A DNA stretch of 64,000 nucleotides. Origin: Rhodothermales bacterium (lineage in GTDB: Bacteria > Bacteroidota > Rhodothermia > Rhodothermales > UBA10348). Below the pieces are notes generated by a model. It ran no database searches and was not told the origin of the DNA. It worked only from the letters and a program-made list of their open reading frames with translations. The position numbers and the translations under genes are program-made. Where the stretch lies: positions 889,806 to 953,805 of the forward strand of contig JAEPNP010000001.1 in assembly GCA_017643395.1 (NCBI GenBank). The letters are read 5' to 3'. This document shows, piece by piece, positions 21,579 through 59,567 of this stretch. Position 1 is the stretch's first letter. Each line of letters begins with the position of its first letter.

Positions 21579-21692
21579 AATACGGATGGACCACATTGTA
21601 ATATACAGATGGACCACTTTCAACTATACAGATGGACCACTTTCAACTATACAGATGGACCACCTTCTACTATACAGATGGTCCACCCCGCC
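21579..21692. repeat. Tandem array of 23-bp repeats
   Basis: Units begin at 21579, 21602, 21625, 21648 and 21671. The two central units (21602-21624 and 21625-21647) are identical, beginning TATACAGATGGACCAC; the third differs at two positions and the outer ones are partly degenerate. The constant core is GATGGACCAC (GATGGTCCAC in the last). The period of 23 is not a multiple of three, so the repeat passes through all frames and cannot encode a protein repeat. It occupies the 323-bp region between the divergent DUF4143 ATPase and subtilase genes. There are no spacers, so it is not a CRISPR array. Confidence 0.85.
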
Positions 21693-56092: not shown

Positions 56093-56971
56093 ATGCACAT
56101 GGGGTTGGTCGGACTGGGCAGGATGGGTGCCGGCATGGCCCGGCGCCTCCGCCGGGCCGGCCACCAGGTGACCGGATACGATCCCTCGAGTGAGGCCTCC
56201 GTGGCCTCACTCGCGGCCCTGGTTGATGCGCTGCCTGCTCCCCGACACATCTGGGTGATGGTGCCGGCCGGAGCCCCCACCCGGGAATCGCTCGACGAAC
56301 TGGCCCGGCTGCTCGGATCCGGCGACCATCTTGTTGACGGCGGGAACAGCCATTACGTCGAAGCCGCCCCGCGCGCGGCCCGTCTGGCGGAACAGGGCGT
56401 TGATATGCTGGACGTGGGCACCTCCGGCGGGGTGCTCGGCGAAGAGCACGGCTACTCCCTCATGGTCGGCGGATCCGAGCAGGGCGTGGCGGCCTGGAGG
56501 CCGGTCCTTGAGGCGCTGGCACCGTCGCCTGAAAAGGGGTGGGCGCACGTGGGGGCAAGCGGTGCCGGGCACTTTGCCAAGATGATCCACAATGGGATCG
56601 AGTACGGCATGATGCAGGCTATCGCCGAGGGCGTGGCGGTCATGCAGGCCGATGGCGAACCGCGCGTCGATGTGCCCGCCGCCTTGCACGCATGGCGGTC
56701 CGGCAGCATCGTATCCTCGATGCTGCTGGACCTTACGGAGGAGATACTGGGCGCGAATCCGGCGCTCTCCGGAGTCGGCCACGAAGTGGCGGACTCCGGG
56801 GAGGGGCGGTGGGCGGTGGCTGCGGCAATCGAGCGGGATGTGGCGGCTCCTGTGATCACGCAGGCGCTTCTGGAGCGGCTGCGATCGCGGGATGAGGCCC
56901 GGTTTGCTGACCGGCTGCTGGCGGCGATGCGTGGTGGGTTCGGCGGCCACCATGTGCCGGATGCCTCATGA
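56093..56971 (+). CDS. gnd: 6-phosphogluconate dehydrogenase, decarboxylating, short type
   Basis: 292 aa. NAD(P) fold MHMGLVGLGRMGAGMARRLR, substrate motif DGGNSHYVEAAPRAARL, VGTSGGVLGEEHGYSLMVGG, and the catalytic helix AGHFAKMIHNGIEYGMMQAI with Lys. The length and form match the short GndA/YqeC-type enzymes, commonly NAD-preferring, which convert 6-phosphogluconate to ribulose-5-phosphate and CO2. Begins three bases after DUF1080 and overlaps gntP by ATGA. Confidence 0.93.
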   Translation: MHMGLVGLGRMGAGMARRLRRAGHQVTGYDPSSEASVASLAALVDALPAPRHIWVMVPAGAPTRESLDELARLLGSGDHLVDGGNSHYVEAAPRAARLAEQGVDMLDVGTSGGVLGEEHGYSLMVGGSEQGVAAWRPVLEALAPSPEKGWAHVGASGAGHFAKMIHNGIEYGMMQAIAEGVAVMQADGEPRVDVPAALHAWRSGSIVSSMLLDLTEEILGANPALSGVGHEVADSGEGRWAVAAAIERDVAAPVITQALLERLRSRDEARFADRLLAAMRGGFGGHHVPDAS

Positions 56972-58290
56972 CTGCGGGCTTCCTGCTCGTCCTGGCCGCG
57001 TTGGCCATCGTCCTGATTCTGGTGCAGGTCAGCCTGCTGCGCATTCCTGCGTTCGTAGCGCTGATGGTGGCAACGATCGGTGTTGCTCTGCTTGCCGGCA
57101 TCCCCGCTGCGGACGTGGCACAGGTGGTGCAGGACGGCATGGGGTCCGCGTTGGGCTACATCGCCGTCGTCATCGGGCTTGGCGCCATGTTCGGCGGGCT
57201 TCTGGAACGGTCCGGAGGGGCGCATGCCATGGCAGATGCGCTGCTCGACCGATTCGGCCCCGAACGTGCACCGTGGGCCCTCGCCATCTCGGGCATCGTC
57301 ATTGCCACGCCAGTGTTCTTTGACGTGGCGGTCGTGCTTCTGATGCCGCTGGCCTACGCGGTCTCGAGGGACGCAAGGCGACCACTGCTCTTCTTCGCCG
57401 TGCCCATGATCGCGGGGATCGGAGTCGCCCATGCGTTCATACCGCCCACGCCCGGCCCCGTCGCCGTGGCTGCGCTCCTGGGGGCAGACCTCGGTCTTGT
57501 ACTGCTCTTCGGCCTGGTGGCTGGTTTTCCGGCGATGGCCGTTGGTGGCATTCTGTTCGCACGGTGGATCACGCCACGAATCACGCCAGAGCTCGAACTC
57601 CCCTCACTGGGAGACCCGCCCTCCGGCGTGCGTCCCGTGTCTGCCCTGACCGCAGCCTCCGTGCTCGCGCTTCCGCTGGTGCTCATCGTATCCGGATCGA
57701 TCGCGAAAGCCGTGATGGATATCGCACCCGGCTGGCTGGTCTTGCTGTCCCACCCGTTCTCCGCTCTGATTATGGCAGTTTTGCTGTCCCTGTGGGCGTT
57801 CGGCCTTCGGGCGGGTATTCCCATGGCCGAGGTGTCGCGCATCTGTACGAAAGCGCTTGAGCCCGTCGGGCTGATAATTCTGGTTACCGGCGCCGGTGGT
57901 GCATTGGGCAAGGTGCTCGTGGCCGCGGGCGCGAGCGACGTGATCGCCGGCGCGTCGAGTGGGGCGGGAGCGCCGACGTTGGTACTCGCCTTCCTCGTTG
58001 CCGCCGCGGTTCGCGTCGTGCAGGGCTCAGCCACCGTGGCCATGATCACCGCGGCGGGATTGGTGTCGCCGCTGCTCCTGGGCGCGTCGGGCGTCACCGC
58101 AGCGCTGGCGACCATCGCGATTGCCTGCGGCGCAACGGTCGTGTCTCACGTCAATGACTCCGGCTTCTGGCTCGTAGGCCGCTACACTGGTCTGTCGGAA
58201 CGCCAGAACTTCTGGGTTTGGACGGTAGCGTCGACACTGATCGGAGTGAGCGGTTTTGCGGTGGTTCTGCTGCTGGCCGCGCTGCTCTGA
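56968..58290 (+). CDS. gntP: GntP-family gluconate permease
   Basis: 440 aa with 12 or more membrane helices. GntP features: VVIGLGAMFGGLLERSGGAH, VFFDVAVVLLMPLAYAVSRD, HAFIPPTPGPVAVAALLGAD, AVRVVQGSATVAMITAAGLV and VSHVNDSGFWLVGRYTGLSE. Imports gluconate or related sugar acids with protons. Last gene of the plus-strand unit; gluconokinase and gluconolactonase follow on the other strand beyond a 51-bp repeat array. Confidence 0.94.
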   Translation: MTAGFLLVLAALAIVLILVQVSLLRIPAFVALMVATIGVALLAGIPAADVAQVVQDGMGSALGYIAVVIGLGAMFGGLLERSGGAHAMADALLDRFGPERAPWALAISGIVIATPVFFDVAVVLLMPLAYAVSRDARRPLLFFAVPMIAGIGVAHAFIPPTPGPVAVAALLGADLGLVLLFGLVAGFPAMAVGGILFARWITPRITPELELPSLGDPPSGVRPVSALTAASVLALPLVLIVSGSIAKAVMDIAPGWLVLLSHPFSALIMAVLLSLWAFGLRAGIPMAEVSRICTKALEPVGLIILVTGAGGALGKVLVAAGASDVIAGASSGAGAPTLVLAFLVAAAVRVVQGSATVAMITAAGLVSPLLLGASGVTAALATIAIACGATVVSHVNDSGFWLVGRYTGLSERQNFWVWTVASTLIGVSGFAVVLLLAALL

Positions 58291-58496
58291 GCAGTTTGCG
58301 GCCGCGTCCTGCTCGTGGAGGCGGGCGGTACCCGCAGTGTAGGCGGCCAGCGCCTCGTCGCATCGAGGCACGGGTCTGTCTCTCACGACCCGAGGCCCTG
58401 GGCTGGGGCTCCGGGCGCAACTCGGCCCAAGCGTCGGCGTGGCGGCGTGCAATCCGCCGCCTTCAGCCCCTTGACCCGGGTTGATGCCGCCAACAT

Positions 58497-58950
58497 CAGA
58501 GGCCCCGAAGGTTCAAAACAGAGCCGAATGGAACCTCTCCACCCGAAAAGCGGCCTCGAAGGTTCAAAACAGGGCCGAATGGAACCTCTTCACCCGAAAA
58601 GCGGCCCCGAAGGTTCAAAACAGGGCCGAATGGAACCTATTCACCCAAAAAGAGGCCTCGAAGGTTTAAAACAGGGCCGAATGGAACCTATTCACCCAAA
58701 AAGAGGCCTCGAAGGTTCAAAACGGGGCCGAATGGAACCTCTTGAGCCGAAAAGGGGCCCCAAAGGTTGAAAACAGGGCCGAATGGAACCTCTTCACCCC
58801 AAAAGAGGCCCGGAAGGTTCAAAACAGAGCCGAATGGAACCTCTTCACCCAAAAAGCGGCCCCAAAGGTTGAAAACAGGCCGCAATGGAACCTCTTCACC
58901 CGAAATGAGGCTTCAAAGGTTGAAAACGGGGCCCGGAGCCAACCTCCCGC
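58497..58950. repeat. Array of 51-bp tandem repeats with internal inverted repeat
   Basis: Units start at 58507, 58558, 58609, 58660, 58711, 58762, 58813, 58864 and 58915 (the last degenerate), preceded by a ten-base remnant. Each begins (G/A)AAGGTT(C/G)AAAAC and contains AGGTTC-N16-GAACCT. In the last unit the arms are AGGTTG and CAACCT: both sides changed together. Units 6 and 8 have changed only one side. There are no spacers. The array lies between convergent gntP and gntK; the 206 bases from 58291 to 58496 and 68 from 58951 to 59018 hold nothing I recognise. Confidence 0.9.
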
Positions 58951-59018
58951 CCTGGGTCAAGGCCACAACTGCGAGGTACCCGAGCGCGCAGCACCGGTCC
59001 CCCGACTCGACCGACGAT

Positions 59019-59567
59019 TCAGCTTGCCCCGGCCAGACCTCCGTTTCTGTCGCCCACCCGGCCCTCGCCCAGCCGGCCATCGCCCAGCCGGCGCACTACC
59101 TCAGCCACAACCACCGAAGGCGCGGCAGACACATCCACCTCCACCGCCGCGGCAGGGCGCTCCAGGTCCGCCAACTGGCTCTCCAGCAGCCCGGCAGGCA
59201 TGTAGTGCCCCCTCCGCTCTTCCAGTCGCCGCCGGATCACCTCCGCCGGGGCGGTCAGGTGCACAAAGAGCACATCGCCCGAATCCCGGCGCAAGGTCTG
59301 TCGGTACCGCTCCTTGAGCGCCGAGCAGGCGACGACCCTGCCGTCGGGGCTTTCGTGCAGGACCTCCCGGACCCGCTCGAGCCAGGGTGCGCGATCGGCA
59401 TCAGTCAGAGGAATGCCGGCCGCCATTTTCGCCCTGGCCTGAGCGCTGTGCAGATCATCCGCGTCTCGAAACGGCACCCCCAACTCCCGCGCGAGCAGGC
59501 GCCCCACGGTGGTTTTTCCGCACCCGGACACCCCCATGACCACGATCCGTCGTGGCGCGCTGCCCAT
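59019..59567 (-). CDS. gntK: Gluconokinase
   Basis: 182 aa. P-loop VVMGVSGCGKTTVGRLLARE, substrate region PFRDADDLHSAQARAKMAAG IPLTDADRAPWL, ACSALKERYRQTLRRD and FVHLTAPAEVIRRRLEERRG. It phosphorylates gluconate to 6-phosphogluconate with ATP, feeding the dehydrogenase at 56093. The C-terminal tail (VRRLGDGRLGEGRVGDRNGG) is repetitive and extends beyond usual length. Begins two bases after the gluconolactonase gene on the same strand. Confidence 0.95.
   Translation of the reverse strand: MGSAPRRIVVMGVSGCGKTTVGRLLARELGVPFRDADDLHSAQARAKMAAGIPLTDADRAPWLERVREVLHESPDGRVVACSALKERYRQTLRRDSGDVLFVHLTAPAEVIRRRLEERRGHYMPAGLLESQLADLERPAAAVEVDVSAAPSVVVAEVVRRLGDGRLGEGRVGDRNGGLAGAS

Follow-up and report, generated by a model that had tools for sequence, protein, structure and literature searches.

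Palindromes scattered between genes are a common feature of bacterial genomes, and a function is known for few of them. A distinct kind of palindromic site is the res site of Tn3-type resolvases, which comprises three dyad sites of ~25-34 bp, each bound by a dimer. Sequences of the REP, BIME and REPIN type are extragenic palindromes that number more than 100 in a genome and are often grouped into composite clusters with regular spacing, and tandem clusters of REPs together with their flanks occur as well (PMC3116915). In the BOX element of Streptococcus pneumoniae, which prefers convergent gaps, terminal modules enclose tandem middle modules, and the number of the latter varies and determines the length of the element (PMC3049150). 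The repeat described here, from a Rhodothermales bacterium, has features in common with each of these. The reading that is preferred, with an estimated probability of about 0.6, is that it represents a dispersed, modular, lineage-specific intergenic element of the BIME/BOX kind, composed of phased predicted binding sites for a dimeric protein, of which nine are present at the locus studied. This locus lies within the window (i.e. the whole stretch of 64,000 nucleotides that was analysed) and has the following features:

56968..58290, + strand: gntP, gluconate:H+ symporter (TIGR00791, NCBIfam); neighbour, outside the element
58291..59018, no strand: 728-bp gap between the convergent gntP and gntK
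58498..58956, no strand: whole tandem array, nine 51-bp units, with 27-bp linkers between successive cores
58511..58534, + strand: dyad 1, core of 24 bp (GTTC...GAAC), flanks AG/CT
58562..58585, + strand: dyad 2, core of 24 bp
58613..58636, + strand: dyad 3, core of 24 bp
58664..58687, + strand: dyad 4, core of 24 bp; left arm AGGTTT, right arm as before
58715..58738, + strand: dyad 5, core of 24 bp
58766..58789, + strand: dyad 6, core of 24 bp; left arm AGGTTG, right arm as before
58817..58840, + strand: dyad 7, core of 24 bp
58868..58891, + strand: dyad 8, core of 24 bp; left arm AGGTTG, right arm as before
58919..58943, + strand: dyad 9, terminal and diverged, core of 25 bp (AGGTTG-N17-CAACCT)
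59019..59567, - strand: gntK, gluconokinase (TIGR01313, NCBIfam); neighbour, outside the element

The array at 58498-58956, which does lie between convergent gntP and gntK as had been proposed (the gene identities now following from NCBIfam), consists of nine head-to-tail units with a period of exactly 51 bp, for which Tandem Repeats Finder reports a period of 51, 8.5 copies, 88% matches, no indels and a score of 639. The original prediction held that all nine units carry AGGTTC-N16-GAACCT, which is too strict, as the exact motif is present in only five of them (units 1, 2, 3, 5 and 7). Its observation that units 6 and 8 are changed in one arm only was recovered (both have AGGTTG on one arm), while the similar change in unit 4 (AGGTTT) had been missed. 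The matched double change described for the last unit is partly upheld: AGGTTG and CAACCT are indeed present, but they are separated by N17 rather than N16, and this one diverged unit stands against three one-sided changes. An Rfam search over the gap, with the curated cut-offs and also with E-values up to 1, gave no match above cut-off for the array.

With eight cores of 24 bp and a last one of 25 bp, the array looks like an internal unit that has been expanded in tandem. In two related genera (G010 and G005), orthologous gntP and gntK likewise converge, the two genes overlap by ~20 bp and the array is missing; it was therefore most likely gained in the lineage of the present genome. Two further repeats were observed in the window. 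A 15-bp tandem repeat at 59050-59092, inside the 3' end of gntK, gives rise to a repetitive C-terminal extension past the end of the alignment with the G010 relative, and a second, intergenic tandem array at 21580-21686 has a period of 23 bp (ATACAGATGGACCACTTTCAACT) and 4.7 copies, and shows no relation to the 51-bp family.

The search for related 51-bp units elsewhere in the genome (4.5 Mb in 21 contigs), which had been suggested originally, yielded at least 88 arrays, nearly all of them intergenic, a count that is a lower bound because the catalogue was drawn from stretches of the genome (including a continuous sample of 400 kb). When the array was compared with the rest of the genome by BLAST, further arrays emerged that resemble it in core and pitch and differ in their linkers, and a unit model gave 145 matches, mostly clustered (palindromic units can match on both strands). 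The pattern of the commoner class, GTGGAA...ATTNCAC, has 155 + 140 matches on the two strands (so that one site may count twice) versus 5 + 4 for the reversed control, and the family is therefore not due to chance. When units were clustered without a 51-bp constraint, the gap between neighbours was 51 bp in 88 cases, 52 bp in 36, and 50, 53 or 54 bp in 4 together, the remainder being only longer, which means that the spacing is not a product of the search. Predicted genes are avoided almost completely, with 188 of 190 units falling outside them.

Every dyad consists of two half-sites in inverted orientation, approximately A-N-GT-K-S-M-A-W. Triplets of such dyads are the commonest form in the present genome (57 of 88 arrays) and account for 75 of the 108 arrays that were collected across four genomes. 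In these 108 arrays the dyad cores (from GT to AC) measure 24 or 25 bp, and 214 of 243 linkers are 27 bp long. The modal triplet plan is 25-27-24-27-25 (~128 bp; 35 of the 75 triplets), and in triplets the dyad centres are 51-52 bp apart, i.e. about five turns of B-DNA. Core length depends on position in the present genome, where 134 of 148 terminal cores measure 25 bp and 66 of 115 internal ones 24 bp (P = 4e-18), with exceptions among the long arrays, some of which have 25-bp cores throughout. The number of internal units per array ranges from 1 to 8. The outermost half-site is often ATGGAA and the middle one often GTCGAA, as a result of which the ~128-bp element tends to two-fold symmetry overall.

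Among the relatives, the commoner pattern matches 69 times in G010 (Rhodothermales bacterium RX1_metabat.bin.83, of another genus), 28 times in the congener G001 (Bacteroidota bacterium OFTM201) and 18 times (a slight elevation) in the congener G002, compared to 295 times in the present genome, and is near background in the remaining relatives. Among 394 genomes sampled from the phylum, it is elevated only in the present genome and in RX1_metabat.bin.83. The triplet geometry, partly with other arm sequences, was found in the two congeners (OFTM201 and G002) and in one other genus of the family (RX1_metabat.bin.83). All six triplets found in G002 belong to the GTT class, while the repertoire of RX1_metabat.bin.83 consists of GTGGAA triplets with longer arms, GTTGAA arrays and GTGCAC triplets, the GTGCAC pattern having 20 + 20 matches there and a single match in all other 59 genomes. 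The geometry is kept while the presumably recognised sequence changes between relatives. In another genus (G004), the architecture with other arms was absent from 28.6 kb of intergenic DNA, a small sample.

The exact double-dyad pattern, searched against ~85,000 species, matched many genomes; among the matches inspected, the architecture is common to OFTM201 and RX1_metabat.bin.83 only. A spread beyond the family was rejected, since the outside matches that were inspected are either fortuitous or belong to other repeats, one example being the GTAG-type palindromes of a Thiotrichaceae genome. In that genome, Thiotrichaceae STC_44 (L228, L257, L263, L266), many inverted pairs of the GTAG-type palindrome GTAGGGTGGAATAGCGTAGCGTATTCCACC were observed, which resemble ordinary REP elements, and WOR-3 UBA3073 (L278) has tandem units with GTGGAATAGTTAACACATTCCAC at two places ~1.5 kb apart, which is a different repeat. 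A viral origin was rejected as well, as the exact-pattern matches in viral contigs have no chain of spaced units, and those that were read resemble chance matches in coding DNA.

Local tandem duplications of ~190-340 bp are frequent around the elements (L098, L326, L329, L351, L352, L353, L359 and others), each copy containing a whole triplet and a GC-rich low-complexity flank. Aligned duplicates differ by 5.5% in the arms, 17.5% in the linkers and 9.9% in the flanks, and 17 clean triplet comparisons show differences at 13 of 714 arm positions versus 131 of 923 linker positions (~2% vs 14%), a contrast that is partly biased because the arms served to detect one or both copies of every pair, and in which multi-copy families are entered more than once. 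By sequence comparison, the half-sites are conserved in place while the linkers drift.

Whether the two arms of a dyad also change together bears on the choice between hairpins in RNA and proteins on DNA. Covariation of the arms over many units, for which the original prediction had seen a first sign, is absent within class: in class 2 (182 non-redundant units) as well as class 1 (35), arm positions match their partners no more than in a shuffled pairing, with z at most 2.5 in class 2, at a nearly invariant position. Pooling the classes gives a single strong signal (position 2, z 14), which is class identity, because the two arms of a unit share one class, and a separate test on 34 units gave 72.5% paired cells versus 70.8% after shuffling. 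As the units were detected by a two-arm score, which would favour matching arms, the missing covariation does not stem from the way in which they were selected. A transcribed multi-hairpin region in the 3' ends of the gntP and gntK messages (i.e. a terminator, stabiliser or RNase barrier), which was one of the original guesses, would agree with inverted repeats in a convergent gap and with the whole 453-nt array folding modestly better than shuffles (z -2.4), and the RX1_metabat.bin.83 triplets with longer arms do fold (one unit z -2.75). It is nevertheless very improbable, because (besides the missing covariation) single units of the nine-unit array fold no better than shuffles, no excess of terminator-like sites was found, the pitch is fixed at 51-52 bp despite a free linker sequence, and elements are present in divergent gaps too (9 of 66). 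A neutral slippage minisatellite, with the inverted repeat as an accident of the founding unit, fares slightly worse still. The units of the nine-unit array are alike, and the intergenic DNA of this genome is rich in GC-rich tandem repeats, but the same pitch and core lengths are found despite unrelated linkers and different arms, many triplets consist of three non-identical units, and the arms change far less than the linkers; the constant geometry throughout the genome refutes such an origin, unless it is an assembly artefact. From the mobile minisatellite that had been suggested, the dispersal, the occasional MITE-like carriage and the long arrays resembling tandem expansion can be retained. 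Finally, despite its place between two gluconate genes, the array is not an operator of these genes: an operator array for their regulator is the least probable reading of all, as the array is 3' of both gntP and gntK, like elements adjoin unrelated genes, and orthologous gene pairs are without it. A common regulon was rejected too, the 30 neighbouring genes tested having no shared function. These 30 neighbours (of ~100) include no common DNA-binding gene, no recombinase and no transposase; a LexA-like gene was observed next to a threefold repeated triplet (L329:3279-3911).

A stronger competitor, although still rather unlikely, is a purely parasitic non-autonomous mobile element (MITE- or BOX-like) without host function, the dyads of which would bind its transposase or recombinase (cf. 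the three-dimer res site). Dispersed copies with clean ends speak for it, several elements at unrelated loci of RX1_metabat.bin.83 being 79-84% alike with the similarity stopping at the element ends, as do the orthologous gene pairs without the array and the strongly different copy numbers of congeners. Some triplets are also carried by IS-derived or MITE-like pieces. OFTM201 (L395-L399) has five copies of a truncated IS element, presumably IS1182-like, which start with CTAG-CAGTCTGTCGGACT and end in a dyad triplet followed by CTAG, so that CTAG flanks these carriers on both sides wherever both ends were seen. In RX1_metabat.bin.83 (L405, L408, L410, L412), some GTGCAC triplets lie within a MITE-like element that is 280-390 bp long and has CAGGGCGTGTTCACGC as its terminal inverted repeats, whereas the other GTGCAC triplets are bare. 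REP palindromes are known targets of IS elements (PMC1525189), and the carriage of triplets may therefore be secondary. With genes called by a purpose-written simple codon-usage caller and background gaps of 200 bp or more as the reference, convergent gaps are over-represented among the distinct element-bearing regions (22 of 66 versus 8 of 60; P = 0.012) and divergent gaps under-represented (9 of 66 versus 19 of 60; P = 0.019), and in the 66 intergenic regions no element was found at 58 bp or less from a predicted gene start. Pneumococcal BOX, RUP and IS elements are distributed in a similar manner (PMC3049150), and the preference for convergent gaps is also expected of a parasite that is merely tolerated. 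On the other hand, conservation of the half-sites after local tandem duplication is poorly explained by transposition competence alone, and the 30 neighbours tested include neither a recombinase nor a transposase. Moreover, in an analysis of ends that rests on flank profiles, 75 triplets revealed no conserved end (or terminal inverted repeat) beyond the outer half-site and, for bare triplets, no target duplication.

Half-sites that vary independently and yet are conserved are the trace expected of a dimeric protein on duplex DNA, and the protein-binding array, of the original guesses, seems the best supported, given these half-sites, the pitch of about five turns and the conservation in place. 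According to this preferred reading, one protein dimer would bind each dyad as duplex DNA, and the dimers would align on one face of the helix, the basic complex consisting of three dimers and the gntP-gntK array accommodating as many as nine. The element would be a small repeat that spreads by its own mobility or by being carried, and long arrays would grow through tandem duplication of a unit. Once bound, it may have an architectural or insulating role between genes, which is the weakest step and follows what has been proposed for protein-binding BIME/REP arrays. More tentatively, and with the odds against it, the family might be the visible part of an undescribed genome-wide DNA-binding system, in which a dimeric protein, with lineage-specific versions for each arm class (GTGGAA, GTTSMA, GTGCAC), would form complexes of three or more dimers on symmetric three-dyad sites with a pitch of about five turns, at about a hundred intergenic places; the system would serve as an insulator or organiser of the chromosome, and its site sequence would change in step with the protein. 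It seems that sequence alone can separate the two usual readings of such repeats here, conserved non-covarying arms with a fixed pitch and symmetry pointing to proteins on duplex DNA. The ~128-bp element would be a concrete bait for a DNA-binding protein in Rhodothermales, and the family offers a case of one geometry that is retained by related genera with different putative recognition sequences.

No description of such an element was found in the literature searched, which covered few subscription journals. With CRISPRs the array shares short repeats at intervals of similar length, but, as stated originally, it is not one, because the repeats are imperfect, the intervals are themselves repeated within homogeneous arrays, and arrays often have three units only. 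Some arms resemble integron attC boxes (GTTRRRY/RYYYAAC), a candidate that was dropped because other arm classes do not fit. The basic triplet has three dyad sites, as res has, yet the subsites of res are spaced unevenly and adjoin a recombinase gene, while the spacing here is constant over about a hundred copies, with no recombinase among 30 neighbours. ERIC (127 bp) and MITEs are approached by the size (~128 bp), the dispersed intergenic distribution, the largely symmetric build and the presence of some triplets inside MITE-like carriers; ERIC is, however, a simple repeat (PMC3049150), and the bare triplet shows no terminal inverted repeat beyond its own dyads in the flank profiles. REPs of the kind described above accompany a RAYT (Y1) transposase, which is likely absent from the present genome (98% complete), and a RAYT-driven REP was rejected, as no match to PF01797 was found in this genome while the same search gave matches in 5 of 14 control genomes. 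A REPIN is an inverted REP doublet with a predicted hairpin, whereas the modal unit here is a head-to-tail triplet (57 of 88) with a pitch of 51-52 bp and no covariation. Many regularly spaced extragenic palindromic units per genome, as in BIMEs, are found in the present family as well, although BIME units alternate in orientation and the dyads here repeat head to tail. BOX, for its part, has terminal inverted repeats, target duplications and a predicted RNA fold (PMC3049150), whereas bare triplets show no such ends in the flank profiles, and no selected pairing. The organisation into end and middle modules is nevertheless shared with BOX, terminal cores being 25 bp and internal ones mostly 24 bp, and the two kinds of module differ here by one base pair and an arm preference rather than being wholly different.
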